A DNA stretch of 64,000 nt from Actinocorallia herbida. Lineage in GTDB: Bacteria > Actinomycetota > Actinomycetes > Streptosporangiales > Streptosporangiaceae. Both the position numbers and the translations under genes were made by a program. Below are positions 41,516 through 47,246 of this stretch, piece after piece (position 1 is the stretch's first letter; each line of letters opens with the position of its first letter). Under the pieces are notes generated by a model that was not told where the DNA came from, did not search any database, and saw only the letters and a list, made by a program, of their open reading frames with translations. The stretch covers positions 558,001 through 622,000 of the forward strand of contig NZ_RJKE01000001.1 in the NCBI RefSeq assembly GCF_003751225.1. Reading direction: 5' to 3'.

Positions 41516-43114
41516 TCACCGATCCTGGAGCACCGCGTGCTTGACCTTTCCGGTCGTGGTACGCGGCAGCTCGGTGACGAAATGGACGTCTCGCGGGACT
41601 TTGTAGCGCGCCAGCCGGGCGCGTACATGGGCCTTGAGCATGTCGGATGTCACATCGGCGCCGGCCACGGGGACGACCCAGGCGGCGAGGCGCTGCCCGA
41701 ACTCGGCGTCCTCGACCCCGGAGACCGCGACCTCCGCGACGGAGGGGTGGGCTTCGAGCAGATCTTCGACCTCGCCGGGGAAGACGTTCTCGCCGCCGGA
41801 GACGATCATGTCGTCGGCGCGGCCGTCGATGAAGATCCTCCCTTCGGCGTCGAGGTGGGCGAGGTCGCCGGTGTCCAGGAGGCCGTCGATCCGGTTCTTG
41901 TCGCCGCCGCCGGTGTAGCCGCCGAAGTCGAGTCCGGCGTCCAGGTGGAGGGTGCCGACCTCGCCGGCGGGCACGTCGCGGCCGTCGGGGCCGAGGACCC
42001 GCGCGGTCGTGCCGAAGGTGGGACGGCCGACGGTGCCGGGGGCGGCGCGCAGGTCGGCCGGGGTGGCGATGGCCGCCCAGCCGGTCTCGCTGGCGCCGTA
42101 GGCGTTGTACAGGACGTCGCCGAACCGTTCGGTGAAGCGCCGGGCGAGGCCGGGGTGCAGGGCGGCGCCGCCGCTGAGCACGACCCGCAGCGCCTGCGGC
42201 CTGCGCCGGGCGGGCGTCTCCAGGAGGCGGGAGAGCATGAGCGGCACCGCGACGAGGACGGCGACGGCCCTCCGGTCGAGCGTCTTGAGCACGTCGGCGG
42301 GGTCGAAGCGGCGGCGCAGGACGAGCGGGGAACCGAGGCCGAGCGCGACGGCGAGGTAGGTGAAGCCGAGTCCGTGGAAGAGCGGGGGCGCGATCAGGAT
42401 CGGCTCGCCCGAGCGCAGCGGGACCCGCAGGAGGTGGCCGAGTCCCTGGGCGAGGAGCGCGGACGGGCCGAAGGAGTGCGCGGCGCCCTTGGGCGGCCCG
42501 GTGGTCCCCGACGTGAGCAGGACGATCCGGCCCGTCCTGGGGGCGACGAGGGGTTCGGCGGGCCCGGCGGCGAGGTCGTCGAGGGTGGGCGCGTCGGCGG
42601 GGCCGTCGTGCCAGGCGATCACGCGGGCGCCGTCGTATCCGGAGGCGGCGACGGCGTCGGCGAACTCGGCGTCGTGCACGAGCACGCCGACGCCTTCCGC
42701 GGCCAGGACCGGGCCGAGCTGCGGGCCGGAGAAGTCGGTGTTGAGCAGGACGACGTCGTGGCCGAGCCGCGATCCGGCGAGGACCGCCTCGACGAACCCG
42801 CGGTGGTTGCGGCACAGGACGCCGAGCCGGGCCTCGCCGTTCAGGAGGCCGCGGAGCGCGGTCGCCTGGGCCGCCGCGCGCGCTTCGAGCTCGGCGAAGG
42901 TCACCGCGCCCTTCTCGTCGACGACGGCGATCCGGGCGGGGAAGCGCAGGGCGGCCGCGGCTCCGGCGAGGGCGGGGGAGGCGCCGAACCTGGCGGCCTG
43001 GAGGGGCAGCCGGGCGAGGCCGCGCGGCCCGATCGGGTGGAGCGCGCCGACGTCGCGGATCACCCGCGCGGTGCCGGAAAGGAGGTCGATGGCCGGGCGG
43101 AACTGTGCGAGCAC
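41516..43114 (-). CDS. AMP-forming acyl-CoA synthetase/ligase
   Basis: 532-residue ANL-superfamily enzyme that adenylates a carboxylic acid and transfers it to CoA. Motifs: phosphate loop TSGTTGPPKGA, FHGLGFTYLAVAL, VVLSGGAALHPGL, YGASETGW, the DTGDL hinge region near residue 430, GGENVFPGEVED and the catalytic Lys in PRTTTGKVKH close to the C-terminus. Sequence style is like mycobacterial FadD12-type fatty-acid ligases. GTG 43114. It lies 87 bp downstream of the siderophore operon on the same strand, so it may be cotranscribed and could load a fatty acyl group onto the siderophore, but this is speculative. Confidence 0.92.
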   Translation of the reverse strand: MLAQFRPAIDLLSGTARVIRDVGALHPIGPRGLARLPLQAARFGASPALAGAAAALRFPARIAVVDEKGAVTFAELEARAAAQATALRGLLNGEARLGVLCRNHRGFVEAVLAGSRLGHDVVLLNTDFSGPQLGPVLAAEGVGVLVHDAEFADAVAASGYDGARVIAWHDGPADAPTLDDLAAGPAEPLVAPRTGRIVLLTSGTTGPPKGAAHSFGPSALLAQGLGHLLRVPLRSGEPILIAPPLFHGLGFTYLAVALGLGSPLVLRRRFDPADVLKTLDRRAVAVLVAVPLMLSRLLETPARRRPQALRVVLSGGAALHPGLARRFTERFGDVLYNAYGASETGWAAIATPADLRAAPGTVGRPTFGTTARVLGPDGRDVPAGEVGTLHLDAGLDFGGYTGGGDKNRIDGLLDTGDLAHLDAEGRIFIDGRADDMIVSGGENVFPGEVEDLLEAHPSVAEVAVSGVEDAEFGQRLAAWVVPVAGADVTSDMLKAHVRARLARYKVPRDVHFVTELPRTTTGKVKHAVLQDR

Positions 43115-43201: not shown

Positions 43202-44716
43202 CTAATCGATCATTGGATTGAATACCTGGACGTATTGGGCGGCTCGGTCCGGTGACCGGGACCACCGGGTCAGCAGGTTCGCCTTGCCCGGCAAGGGGTC
43301 CCCCGCGAAGAGGCCGGCAAGGCGCCGATGCGAGGGCAACTCCTCCAGGATCTTGCGCAGGGCACGCCACAGGTCGGGCTCGCAGGCAGGGTCCCGGTCG
43401 GCGAGCGCGGCGGCGATCTCGGCGAGGTGGTTAACGAACAGGCAGTACGCGACCCGGTTCCAGCCGCGCTCCTCGTCATAGGTGACCGACTCCCTGACGG
43501 CGGGCTCCAGCTCGGCCAAGGACGGCCCCGGAAGCAGCTTCGTCCCCTCCAGATCGCGGAAGACGGCCCGTGACGGGAGGCCCGCCGGATCGTGAAGGAT
43601 CAGGACGTTCTGGAGATGGGGTTCGAGCACGACGCCGTGGTCGAAGAAGAGCCGCAGAGCGGGCAGCGCGACGATCCGCACATACGCTGTCCAGTACTCC
43701 AGCGGGTCCACGCCCTCGGGAAGGAAGCCCGCCCAGGGGTCGGCCAAGGCGGCGGCCACGACGGCCTCGGAAGGGGCGGCCTCCCGGAGGATGACCCCTA
43801 GCCCCTCGTACAGGTTCCGGTCGGCGAGCGCGACGGTGCGGTACGCGGGCTCGCCGAGGAGGTCCGCGCCGAGCAGCGGCTTGAGCAGCCGGGTGAGGGC
43901 GGGCGCGGAGGCGAGTTCGTACCAGGCGTTCTTGCGGACGCAGTTGGTGATCCGCACGTCGAGGCTGAACTTGGCGAAGACCCGCTCACCGTGGGTGAGC
44001 ACGGTGCGCACCGACGACGTCGGGGCCGCCTCGGGGCCCGGCCCGGCGTCGCGCAGCATCCCCGAGGAGAGAGCGCGGCGCAGGACGGGGTTGCCGTCGA
44101 GCAGCCGCCACTGCCACGGGTGCACCGGGAGCGTGCCTTCGGCGGCCAGCGGGGTGAAGTCGCCCTCGCCGCACAGCAGTCCGGGGTCGGCCGCGAGCAG
44201 GCCGAGCCGGAACCGCGCGCCGGTCTCCGGGGCGTACCGCAGCCAGGTCGCGGGCGCGCCCTGGCGGGCCTTGGGCGACGGGTGGTAGCGGTGCCCGGCC
44301 ACGAGCGCCTGCTCCGACGCGACGAGCGGGCTCGCCGGAACCGCGGTGCGGGCGCGCAGGATCGCGGTCATCGCCTGGTGGCTGTTGACGACCTGGCCGA
44401 GGAACTCGGGGTTGTCCGCGCCCGTCCAGCGGCTCAGTTCGGCCGCGACGAGTTCGGCGACCTCGTACCAGCCGATCTCCTCGCCGTCGCGCAGGAACGG
44501 CCCTGAGAGCCGCAGGGACGGTCCATGGGACGGTCTGGGCAGCCGCGCGGTCAGGGTGGTCCGGCCGAGCCGGACGAGGAGCCTGTCGCCGTCGGCGACG
44601 GCCCGCCCGGCGGGGCCGCTGACCTCGCGGACGAGGCAGTGGAGCAGGGCGGTGGCGGTCGCCTCGTCCGCGTCCGCCGGGCTGGTCCCGGTCGGTGCGG
44701 TCGCGGTCAGCGGCAC
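43202..44716 (-). CDS. IucA/IucC-family NIS siderophore synthetase (third gene of operon)
   Basis: 504-residue NRPS-independent siderophore synthetase, which adenylates a carboxylate (citrate-type) and couples it to an amine or alcohol. Seen: HRYHPSPKARQG (142-153), YAPETGARFRLGLL, HPWQ (199-202), SSVRT (234-238), KFSLDVRITNCVRKNAWYEL (250-269), LEPHLQNVLI and FRDLEGTKL. It is shorter than the usual about 580-600 residues, mainly at the N-terminus. GTG 44716 overlaps the previous gene by 10 bp with GGGAGC upstream. Product chemistry is unknown, but family and context give the role. Confidence 0.9.
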   Translation of the reverse strand: MPLTATAPTGTSPADADEATATALLHCLVREVSGPAGRAVADGDRLLVRLGRTTLTARLPRPSHGPSLRLSGPFLRDGEEIGWYEVAELVAAELSRWTGADNPEFLGQVVNSHQAMTAILRARTAVPASPLVASEQALVAGHRYHPSPKARQGAPATWLRYAPETGARFRLGLLAADPGLLCGEGDFTPLAAEGTLPVHPWQWRLLDGNPVLRRALSSGMLRDAGPGPEAAPTSSVRTVLTHGERVFAKFSLDVRITNCVRKNAWYELASAPALTRLLKPLLGADLLGEPAYRTVALADRNLYEGLGVILREAAPSEAVVAAALADPWAGFLPEGVDPLEYWTAYVRIVALPALRLFFDHGVVLEPHLQNVLILHDPAGLPSRAVFRDLEGTKLLPGPSLAELEPAVRESVTYDEERGWNRVAYCLFVNHLAEIAAALADRDPACEPDLWRALRKILEELPSHRRLAGLFAGDPLPGKANLLTRWSRSPDRAAQYVQVFNPMID

Positions 44717-46098
44717 GGAAGCTCCCTCAGGTAGTTGGGGCCCGGCGGGCCGTAGTGTTTGTTGATGTCGGCGGAGCCGGTCCGTGCCTTGGGCACGAGG
44801 GTGCCGGCCGTGAGCATGGCCTTGGCGGGCAGCCGGGGGGCGTCGAGCGTGCGGGCGCGGAGGAAGGGGTCGGTGACGGCCTCGGCCAGGCGGTCCCGGA
44901 CGAGGCCCAAGGCGTCGGGCAGCGGCAGCAGGCCGCGTTGGGCGAGCCCGAACGCGACGGCCCCTGCGCACAGGTGCAGGGTGATCGTGACGAAGACGCG
45001 GGCACGCGCCTCGGGGCCGCCGACCATGCGGGGGTCCTCGAAGTCGCCGGAGGCGAGCATCGCCCCGTCGTTGTCCTTGAGCAGGAGTTCTCCGCGCGGG
45101 GTGACCGAGACGTTCTGCTGGTGCGCCTCCAGCGCGATCCCGTGCCGCTCGAAAAGCGCGACGTTCCAGGCGAACAGGGTGTGCAGGTAGGCGTCGAAGA
45201 ACCTGCGGACGTCGCCGGAGGACACCTCTTCGATGACGTAAGGGCCCTCAGGAGTACGGGCCAGAAGGGCGGCGACGGGGACTGCGTCGGAGACGGGCAG
45301 CCTCCGGACGAGGAAGGCGAGGTTCGGGTCGTGGGCGTGCCCGTAGGTCTGCTCGTCGGCGAGCAGGACGGGCAGCCCTTCGGCTTCGGCGATCCGGGAC
45401 AGCAGCCGTTGCACGCGGGCGCCGTCCACGAGGGTGCCCGGTTTGATGGAGCGCACGTTCCTGCGGCCGAGGGTGGCCGTCGGCAGGGGCACCTTGACGT
45501 GTTCGGCGGCCGTGACGGCGAGGGTGCGCATCGACAGGGTGGGGCTGACGGGGACCCGGCGTCCGGCGACCGTCGGGACGAGTCCCTTGTCGGCCGTCAA
45601 AGGGTGGACGGGGAAGGGCACCGCGTCGCCGGGCAGTCCAAGGGAACCCGGGGTAGGCCACCACGAGGGGAGTTCCCCCCGCAGGACGGGTCCGGTGACC
45701 CCGGTCCAGGCGAGCTCGAAGGTCGGCTGGTACTCCGGCGCGTACGCGGCGATCTCCGAGGACGTCAGACCGGCCTTCGCCCTTCCCAGCGGATGGACCG
45801 GGTGCCCTAGCCGCGCGGCCAGGGCGTCGTGGCGGGTGACTCCGGGGCGGACCGGAGGCAGCTCGGCGCCTTCTGCGAGGAAGGCTTCTCCGCACTCGGC
45901 GAGGAAACCCTCGACGTCGTCGTCCTCGGCGGCTTCGGCGCGGACCAGGGCGGCCACCTCGGCCAGCGAGACCCCGCCGGACACTCTGGCGTCGGACAGG
46001 AAGCCGTCGGGCTCGGTGGCGGCGTGTGCGGGCGCGCGGACATAGCCTTCGCGGACGAGGGCGGTGAGCACCCGCGCCGCGAACTCCGCCTCAGTCAA
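44707..46098 (-). CDS. IucA/IucC-family NIS siderophore synthetase (second gene of operon)
   Basis: 463 residues, clearly short for an NIS synthetase. The family motifs are present: HPVHPLGRAKAG (99-110), AYAPEYQPTFELAW, SMRT (189-192), EEVSSGDVRRFFDAYLHTLFAW, AHQQNV (325-330) and KDNDG (341-345). HPLT (165-168) replaces the HPWQ found in the sister protein. The last about 100 residues are helical. ATG 46098 overlaps the ATP-grasp stop by 8 bp. It would catalyse one acyl coupling in the assembly of a polycarboxylate siderophore together with the ATP-grasp ligase and sister enzyme. Confidence 0.88.
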   Translation of the reverse strand: MTEAEFAARVLTALVREGYVRAPAHAATEPDGFLSDARVSGGVSLAEVAALVRAEAAEDDDVEGFLAECGEAFLAEGAELPPVRPGVTRHDALAARLGHPVHPLGRAKAGLTSSEIAAYAPEYQPTFELAWTGVTGPVLRGELPSWWPTPGSLGLPGDAVPFPVHPLTADKGLVPTVAGRRVPVSPTLSMRTLAVTAAEHVKVPLPTATLGRRNVRSIKPGTLVDGARVQRLLSRIAEAEGLPVLLADEQTYGHAHDPNLAFLVRRLPVSDAVPVAALLARTPEGPYVIEEVSSGDVRRFFDAYLHTLFAWNVALFERHGIALEAHQQNVSVTPRGELLLKDNDGAMLASGDFEDPRMVGGPEARARVFVTITLHLCAGAVAFGLAQRGLLPLPDALGLVRDRLAEAVTDPFLRARTLDAPRLPAKAMLTAGTLVPKARTGSADINKHYGPPGPNYLRELPCR

Positions 46099-47173
46099 CG
46101 GCCCACGTCCGGGCGTGCCGGAAGCGGGTGAGCGCCGCGTCGACGGCGGCGCGGTCGGGACCGAGCAGCTGGACGGTGCCGAGATAGTCCCGGTTTGTAT
46201 TGGTCTGGATGATCACATCACCAATATTCCGCTGGGGGCGGTAGGTAACCGAGACACCGCTGTCCAGAACCGTCCCCGGCGCGGGCGCGGAGGTCAGGGT
46301 GCCGGATCTGTCCGCGACCAGGTACTCCACGGTCGCCGCGCCGGCCGGACGGGGCACGAAGGCCGGCGGCTGTCCGAGATGGGTCAGCAGGACGTCGGCG
46401 AAGATGTCGCGGCGGAGGAGCTCGGCGAGCAGGAAGTCGCAGTGGTCGCCGATGATCCGGTAGTTGACCTCGATGATGCGGGCCCGTCCCTCGTGCACGA
46501 CGAACTCGGTGTGGCAGGCGCCGAAGCCGACGCCGAGGGAGTCGAGCGCGGCGAGGACCTGAGGGGTCTCCGGGGGAGGGGGAGCCCAATCCAGGCGCTC
46601 CTCGATGAAGTAGGGCTCGGGGGAGAGGGTGGTGGTGAAAGAGCCGAGTACTTGCCCATTCAGGGTCTCCAGCGTGTGGAGGCGTCCGGGCAGGTACTCC
46701 TCGGCGACCATCGGCCGCCCGGTGTCGGACAAGGCCGCGAGTTCGCTCGGCGTCCGCACCAGGACCACGTCTTCGCTGGCCACGCCTTCCCTGGGCTTCA
46801 CGACGAGCGGGTAAGGCGCGTCGTCGGGGACAGGGAAAGGGGCCGCCCATACGTCGCCGAGGTGGCGCCGCATGAGGCTCTTGTTCTTGCAGCGGAGGGT
46901 GGCCTTCCAGTCTTTGCCCGGCAGGCCGTGGAACTCGGCGGCGAGTGCGGTCGGCGTCTGGAGGAAGTCGCCGTTGGAGAAGTAGGCGTCCGGCCTCCCG
47001 TGCTGCACGATCTCGCGGAAGTCCGCGACGTCGCAGCCGACGGCCGTGCGGCCCGGATACTGCTCCGGCCGGTCGGTGAGGACCGTCACGTCGAGGCCGA
47101 GCCGGTCGGCCGCGGGCAGGAAGCCCGCCAAGACCGAGTCGGTGGCCTTCCCCGCGATCACGAACAGCCGCAC
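46091..47173 (-). CDS. ATP-grasp ligase of the siderophore operon
   Basis: 360-residue ATP-grasp enzyme (carboxylate-amine ligase). Signs: an N-terminal RLFVIAGKATDSVL Rossmann-like start, KNKSLMRRHLGDVWAAPFPV, PLVVKPREGVASEDVVLV (ATP-binding Lys), AEEYLPGRLHTLE, and the metal-binding FVVHEGRARIIEVNYRIIGDHCDFL. It resembles PvsA, the ATP-grasp ligase of vibrioferrin biosynthesis, in being encoded beside two IucA/C genes. It is first in the operon, behind the iron box at 47228-47246. The ATG is at 47173. Confidence 0.9.
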   Translation of the reverse strand: MRLFVIAGKATDSVLAGFLPAADRLGLDVTVLTDRPEQYPGRTAVGCDVADFREIVQHGRPDAYFSNGDFLQTPTALAAEFHGLPGKDWKATLRCKNKSLMRRHLGDVWAAPFPVPDDAPYPLVVKPREGVASEDVVLVRTPSELAALSDTGRPMVAEEYLPGRLHTLETLNGQVLGSFTTTLSPEPYFIEERLDWAPPPPETPQVLAALDSLGVGFGACHTEFVVHEGRARIIEVNYRIIGDHCDFLLAELLRRDIFADVLLTHLGQPPAFVPRPAGAATVEYLVADRSGTLTSAPAPGTVLDSGVSVTYRPQRNIGDVIIQTNTNRDYLGTVQLLGPDRAAVDAALTRFRHARTWAVD

Positions 47174-47227
47174 CCGTCCCCCTCGGATGTGAGAGGCGAA
47201 ATGGATTCGCCCGGCCTACCAGTCGCC

Positions 47228-47246
47228 TTAGGTAAGCCTTGCCTAA
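47228..47246. promoter_or_regulatory. DmdR1/IdeR-type iron box
   Basis: TTAGGTAAGCCTTGCCTAA is a 19-bp near-perfect palindrome matching the actinobacterial iron-repressor consensus (TTAGGTTAGGCTAACCTAA). It lies 55 bp upstream of the ATP-grasp ATG and 42 bp upstream of the divergent HD-domain gene, so iron-bound repressor should silence the siderophore operon, and perhaps affect the HD gene. Confidence 0.9.

Follow-up and report, generated by a model that had tools for sequence, protein, structure and literature searches.

Positions 43202-47246 of a 64,000-nucleotide stretch of Actinocorallia herbida DNA (the whole stretch is hereafter called the window) carry three minus-strand genes for an ATP-grasp ligase and two nonribosomal peptide synthetase (NRPS)-independent siderophore (NIS) synthetases, preceded by an iron box. 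This locus raises the question of which siderophore such a gene set would make, and whether a pathway with neither the exporter PvsC nor the decarboxylase PvsE beside its other genes could be complete. From sequence comparisons, we consider it probable that the three genes form an iron-repressed operon for a vibrioferrin-type α-hydroxycarboxylate siderophore, which would be completed in trans by a PvsE encoded elsewhere in the genome. The coordinates of the features are given in Table 1.

Identity and distribution of the operon genes

The overlaps of 8 bp between pvsA and pvsB and of 10 bp between pvsB and pvsD, as well as the positions and orientation reported in an earlier note that was made from the window sequence alone, were confirmed, and all three reading frames are open. 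That note had likened the genes to PvsA, PvsB and PvsD of vibrioferrin biosynthesis, in agreement with the Pfam families of the proteins and with a tree of 33 NIS proteins, in which the second gene falls within a single PvsB clade (support 100/100) and the third groups with the PvsD rows, among which AcsD of Sodalis is nested. The ATP-grasp protein was compared with PvsA, as the note had proposed, and matched the gene at the pvsA position of Vibrio fortis at 34.5% and a Pantoea soli gene annotated as PvsA at 39.8%. The closest PDB structure to the ATP-grasp family profile was the L-amino acid ligase 3vot (E = 1.6e-18), and the best PDB match of the PvsB family profile was 7cbb (E = 4.5e-27), which we take to be SbnC; a paper on the SbnC structure reportedly names this protein a type B representative in its title. 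For the third gene, the closest solved structure was AcsD (2w02, E = 3.9e-58), and all 11 AcsD positions that we checked, which presumably lie in or around the active site (S279, R281, K293, T301, N302, R305, E442, H444, N447, D464 and G467), are identical in this protein. A search of the whole genome (one contig, 9.8 Mb) for the IucA_IucC family found only the two NIS genes of the window. The operon combines a PvsA-type ligase with a PvsB-type and a PvsD-type NIS synthetase, which are among the features by which we judged membership in the vibrioferrin type, and its genes look like pvsA, pvsB and pvsD of such a pathway.

The nearest named relatives, as judged by the second gene, are Actinocorallia sp. 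API 0066 (87%) and A. populi (74%). Among the related loci compared (the best 80 of 105 found), 74 contain the A, B and D genes together. In a survey of the order to which the window belongs (151 genomes, each at least 95% complete), pvsA was found in 85 genomes, in two of them as partial hits, usually in the arrangement A-B-D-E without PvsC, and the ATP-grasp profile at E 1e-60 matched eight of 398 sampled genomes of the phylum, that of the window included. The vibrioferrin-type gene set is largely a trait of this order, with scattered occurrences in others. A likely siderophore class can be assigned to a gene set present in over half (85/151) of the genomes sampled from an order that is rich in antibiotic producers.

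Both NIS synthetases had been described as short, and this was borne out. With 463 amino acids (aa), the PvsB of the window matches the minimum length among 79 related loci (median 525), and with 504 aa its PvsD lies at the short end of 72 loci (range 502-628, median 541), the start codons in this survey having been chosen automatically. Compared with the proteins of V. fortis, PvsB is 140 and PvsD 117 residues shorter, and most of the missing residues belong to the N-terminal region and to loops. Such lengths, together with the position of pvsE outside the operon, would be expected of a decaying remnant in which genes and parts of proteins are being lost and from which nothing is made any more; in line with this, a related copy from a metagenome-assembled genome (L010) has a stop inside pvsB as its reading frame was called, and no pvsD match was found in the L010 genome. 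We regard decay as very unlikely and rejected it, since the frames are open, the motifs and the AcsD-type residues are kept, the iron box is perfect and the same trimming occurs in the nearest relatives, with equal lengths in locus L004. Moreover, the ratios of nonsynonymous to synonymous substitution rates (dN/dS) against L004, the locus of the nearest relative, are 0.13 for pvsA, 0.18 for pvsB and 0.23 for pvsD, the first two lying below the values of three neighbouring genes (0.22-0.33) and the third among them. By this measure the operon genes are under purifying selection, and the NIS enzymes look trimmed rather than broken. L010 itself is either a broken operon copy or an assembly fault.

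The motif HPLT in place of HPWQ in one synthetase, which the earlier note had singled out, was rejected as an oddity of this strain. It is common in PvsB, occurring in the proteins of V. fortis, Pantoea and Rhodococcus, with HPFV at this place in Cupriavidus and HPLA in Actinomadura violacea.

A decarboxylase encoded away from the operon

The statement that PvsC and PvsE are not beside the operon is correct as far as adjacency goes, whereas a full-length PvsE-type pyridoxal phosphate (PLP) decarboxylase is encoded at G000:C1:9103190-9104326 (9.10 Mb), away from the operon and, as judged by eye, a few kb from gyrA- and gyrB-like genes. Loss of PvsE from the strain was rejected in view of this copy. 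Its closest solved structure is 6knh, which we take to be SbnH, and it keeps 77 of the 79 columns that are invariant across 60 PvsE proteins from operons and plasmids (rows longer than 335 aa, without stops).

A PvsE-type gene adjoins the operon in 59 of the 80 related loci, on the same strand in 58 and on the opposite strand in L077, and three of these genes are partial. It is present beside the operon in A. populi and absent from that place in the window and in L004, and L045 retains only a short PvsE tail there. Twenty-one loci have no full adjacent PvsE; all 17 genomes searched among them carry PvsE elsewhere, one as two partial hits, the search having left out L013, L028, L036 (which ends before the PvsE place) and L045. 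In the survey of the order, PvsE with at least 55% identity was found in all 85 pvsA-positive genomes, compared with four of the 66 pvsA-negative genomes; this identity line was set after the hits had been inspected, and weaker PvsE-like matches (35-45%) in further genomes were not counted. PvsE lay only within 8 kb of the operon in 57 of the pvsA-positive genomes, only elsewhere in 21 and at both places in seven. If only adjacent genes are considered, the decarboxylase is overlooked in roughly one carrier in four (21/85), and the structure predicted for the product may be wrong, as happened in the earlier note.

In a carefully built tree of PvsE (from which L113 was left out as short and L109 and L110 as duplicates), the copy of this strain and 14 other detached copies formed one clade (100/98). 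A tree of more genomes built by a quick method (without L084, L109, L110, L112, L113 and L114) placed 20 detached copies, including that of this strain, in one clade (Shimodaira-Hasegawa-like approximate likelihood ratio test, 99); three of the genomes whose detached copies it contains have also retained PvsE in the operon. L093, L133, L134, L135, L137 and L138, which are plasmids or a locus of D and E, fall outside the detached clade and were not counted as detached. Other detached copies, from Streptosporangium-like genomes, fall elsewhere, so that PvsE was detached more than once. These trees are most simply explained if PvsE was duplicated long ago and several lineages later lost the copy in the operon; alternatively, the detached lineage may have arisen by transfer. 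The detached loci share few neighbouring genes, and no common landing site was seen in the neighbourhoods compared, which extend over about 4 kb or less except for the longer one of this strain.

The division of the pathway over separate loci takes different forms, since in some genomes pvsD, sometimes with pvsE, lies apart from pvsA-pvsB. We observed pvsD apart from these genes, or in stretches that, as far as read, lacked them, in L045 with L138, in L063 with L139 and in L137, with pvsE adjoining in two of these cases; in the genome of L045, PvsD lies beside PvsE at another place.

Iron control and a proposed pathway

The iron box ahead of the operon, which had been called near-perfect, is perfect: the site TTAGGTAAGCCTTGCCTAA has 0 mismatches to the pattern TTAGGNNAGNCTNNCCTAA. 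We take it to be of the IdeR/DmdR1 type. The window contains two further matches with three mismatches each, where 0.28 matches with at most three mismatches would be expected by chance. In the genome, 24 sites with at most two mismatches were found, compared with two for a reversed control pattern, and the box upstream of pvsA is one of six perfect sites. A box with at most one mismatch precedes pvsA in 77 of the 78 related loci that could be tested (two of the 80 had no pvsA start), and none of 689 control stretches carries a box at up to two mismatches. In the exception, L063, the best match has four mismatches and pvsD is located elsewhere. Consequently, the operon is very probably iron-controlled, as predicted from this conserved box. 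The same test applied to 19 PvsE genes away from the operon, of which 15 belong to the detached clade and one (L128) provided only 248 bases, found no iron box in any of them, the best matches having six or seven mismatches. The detached decarboxylase, judged by its upstream sequence, is not controlled through such an iron box.

Vibrioferrin consists of citrate, ethanolamine, alanine and 2-oxoglutarate, and AcsD joins citrate to L-serine. Our tentative assignment of the steps is based on AcsD, 7cbb and an amino acid ligase as the closest solved relatives of the enzymes. Low iron would release a repressor, presumably of the IdeR/DmdR1 type, from the box, and pvsA, pvsB and pvsD, whose overlaps suggest a common transcript, would be transcribed together. 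From its family, PvsD is expected to join citrate to L-serine, and PvsE, supplied from the 9.10 Mb locus, would remove the seryl carboxylate to give the ethanolamine unit, while PvsA may attach an amino acid, for example alanine, through an amide bond and PvsB may add 2-oxoglutarate. The product would be moved by an exporter other than PvsC and by a separately encoded uptake system. The PvsE of this strain would descend from a copy that was separated long ago in the Thermomonosporaceae; no operon copy was found here, and the detached, box-free copy would serve the pathway.

Several points weigh against this proposal. Four pvsA-negative genomes have PvsE, and seven of 85 genomes have PvsE both beside the operon and far from it, so that the detached copy may have begun in a separate role. 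The lack of an iron box in all 15 tested copies of the detached clade makes co-regulation with the operon doubtful, and the detached PvsE may have another substrate. The survey covers related genomes, most of them drafts; some of the hits are partial, and a contig break in a draft genome can make an adjacent PvsE look distant. Because of the relatedness and the draft state, the co-occurrence of pvsA and PvsE is a strong linkage rather than 85 independent events. No PvsC match was found in the genome at E 1e-10, with a different tool from that used for the related loci and without a positive control of its own. Finally, two reviews place PvsE first, converting free serine to ethanolamine, and assign the amides to PvsB and PvsD and the citrate ester to PvsA (PMC6836290, PMC5577590), and one of the two calls the functions of the pvs enzymes untested.

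Alternatively, the three genes could function as a variant pathway that does not need PvsE, its product being a new citrate siderophore that is not decarboxylated and contains a seryl unit in place of ethanolamine. In favour of this reading, the 87 bp that separate pvsD from the following gene in the window hold no pvsE, pvsE is likewise missing from this place in L004, and the detached copy has no iron box. We nevertheless consider such a variant unlikely, because every surveyed pvsA-positive genome carries PvsE and because the detached copy of this strain keeps nearly all of the invariant columns, with a dN/dS of 0.26 against L111. It is somewhat more conceivable, though still doubtful, that in the Thermomonosporaceae the decarboxylase was duplicated, left iron control and replaced the operon copy in several lineages, so that the operon would make a seryl intermediate, possibly itself a secreted chelator, and maturation would be set by a decarboxylase under another signal. 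If this were true, one strain could switch between two siderophores.

Known systems, neighbouring genes and other iron boxes

A vibrioferrin-type pathway completed by a detached PvsE has to be compared with the systems already described. The order A-B-C-D-E is found in plasmid records of Rhodococcus sp. WAY2, Cupriavidus necator (pHG1), V. fortis and Pantoea soli, in which B and D flank a major facilitator superfamily (MFS) gene and D is followed by a gene for a type III PLP enzyme. The A-B-D-E make-up occurs in line on a Streptomyces chartreusis plasmid and also in Nonomuraea gerenzanensis. According to two articles, V. parahaemolyticus makes vibrioferrin through PvsABCDE, and this system has in common with the window the order A-B-D, the same protein families and a genome-encoded PvsE-type decarboxylase (PMC5812596, PMC5577590). 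An iron-responsive type of control, predicted for the window from its box, would likewise be common to both, and the PvsB and PvsD clades are common to the window, V. fortis and Pantoea. In contrast to pvsABCDE, the operon described here lacks PvsC, its PvsE is distant and box-free, its NIS proteins are shorter and its iron box is of the actinobacterial kind.

The avsABCD genes of Streptomyces avermitilis (SAVERM7320-7323) have been published as the cluster of a 'vibrioferrin-like polyhydroxycarboxylate siderophore', and, like the genes described here, comprise three siderophore synthetase components and a diaminopimelate-decarboxylase-type gene, with no exporter listed in the available part of the article (PMC9394381). 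Compared by content and order only, the two differ in that the decarboxylase gene adjoins the synthetase genes in avs and lies apart from them in the window. The suggestion that the product was not yet described in actinobacteria does not stand against this published cluster of matching four-gene content. No PvsC-type MFS exporter is present in the operon; because the avs cluster lists no exporter either, we take PvsC as typical of the class and not as defining it, and we therefore claim the class as 'vibrioferrin-type' and not as 'the pvs operon'. As far as our searches of the literature on vibrioferrin and NIS siderophores of actinobacteria went, in which Actinocorallia was not searched by name, what is new is the breadth of the gene set in the order and the detached, box-free PvsE, neither of which was found there.

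Two other pathways resemble the operon in part. An achromobactin-like pathway is represented by a Sodalis plasmid cluster (L133), in which a type III PLP enzyme adjoins a NIS gene; among solved structures, AcsD is nearest to the third gene of the window, but L133 contains three NIS genes and a diaminobutyrate transaminase, with no ATP-grasp ligase in the stretch read. For staphyloferrin B-like loci (L134 and L135), the resemblance lies in the best structural matches of the PvsB profile and of PvsE, but these loci carry sbnA, sbnB and three NIS genes, with no ATP-grasp ligase.

A search with the Rhodococcus PvsC found no match in the 80 related loci, and the same search did match PvsC of Cupriavidus, Vibrio and Pantoea. 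Since PvsC was unmatched in these loci and in the genome, export probably uses a different protein. In Rhodococcus (L089), Cupriavidus (L090) and Pantoea (L092), the pvs cluster is accompanied by a gene of the aldolase/citrate lyase family, which presumably resembles the citrate synthase SbnG; the Rhodococcus protein had no match in the 80 related loci.

Table 1. Features of the operon and its surroundings in the window
Feature	Position	Strand	Description
pvsA-like ATP-grasp ligase	46091..47173	minus	360 aa; ATP-grasp Pfam match 26.2 bits (cut-off 23.2)
pvsB-like NIS synthetase, VHPLT motif	44707..46098	minus	463 aa; Pfam IucA_IucC and FhuF
pvsD-like NIS synthetase, AcsD-like	43202..44716	minus	504 aa; Pfam IucA_IucC and FhuF
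acyl-CoA synthetase neighbour	41516..43114	minus	Pfam AMP-binding; probably outside the pathway
iron box, 19-bp palindrome	47228..47246	.	54 bp upstream of the pvsA start

The acyl-CoA synthetase gene starts 87 bp beyond the pvsD stop, as had been noted, and its product scored below the cut-off of every NCBIfam family among the matches listed (25 of 100 matched). If this enzyme loaded a fatty acid, the product would be an acylated, amphiphilic citrate siderophore, for which the common strand, the short gap with no terminator-like site among those listed and the gaps of 33 to 111 bp in seven of the 75 loci with pvsD might speak. However, an acyl-CoA synthetase of more than 50% identity lies near the operon in only 37 of these 75 loci and was not found in the other 38 (some of the compared stretches being short). 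The distance varies from 33 to 4933 bp, other genes intervene in several related loci and, according to Pfam, none of the three operon genes encodes an acyltransferase. The genes beyond the acyl-CoA synthetase keep the same order in relatives, so that the linkage may be plain synteny. The spacing thus speaks for plain neighbourhood, and the possibly acylated product of the earlier note is unsupported; we consider it highly improbable.

Iron boxes elsewhere in the genome precede, as named by eye, binding-protein-like lipoproteins and an ATP-binding cassette (ABC) ATPase. Boxes with 0 or 1 mismatch (L094, L105 and L106 at G000:C1:120461, 4160714 and 5235014) lie near genes that appear by eye to encode an NRPS adenylation-type protein, two MbtH-like small proteins and an isochorismate-synthase-like protein, and the strain probably also has NRPS siderophores. 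A one-mismatch box (L108, G000:C1:8077239-8077257) stands directly before a gene that by eye resembles that for ribosomal protein S4, which would be an unusual target if real. Two further boxes about 1.3 kb apart (L096 and L102, G000:C1:1993409 and 1994761) adjoin genes for two similar secreted-looking proteins and a heme-oxygenase-like gene, again as judged by eye, and this is perhaps a heme uptake locus.

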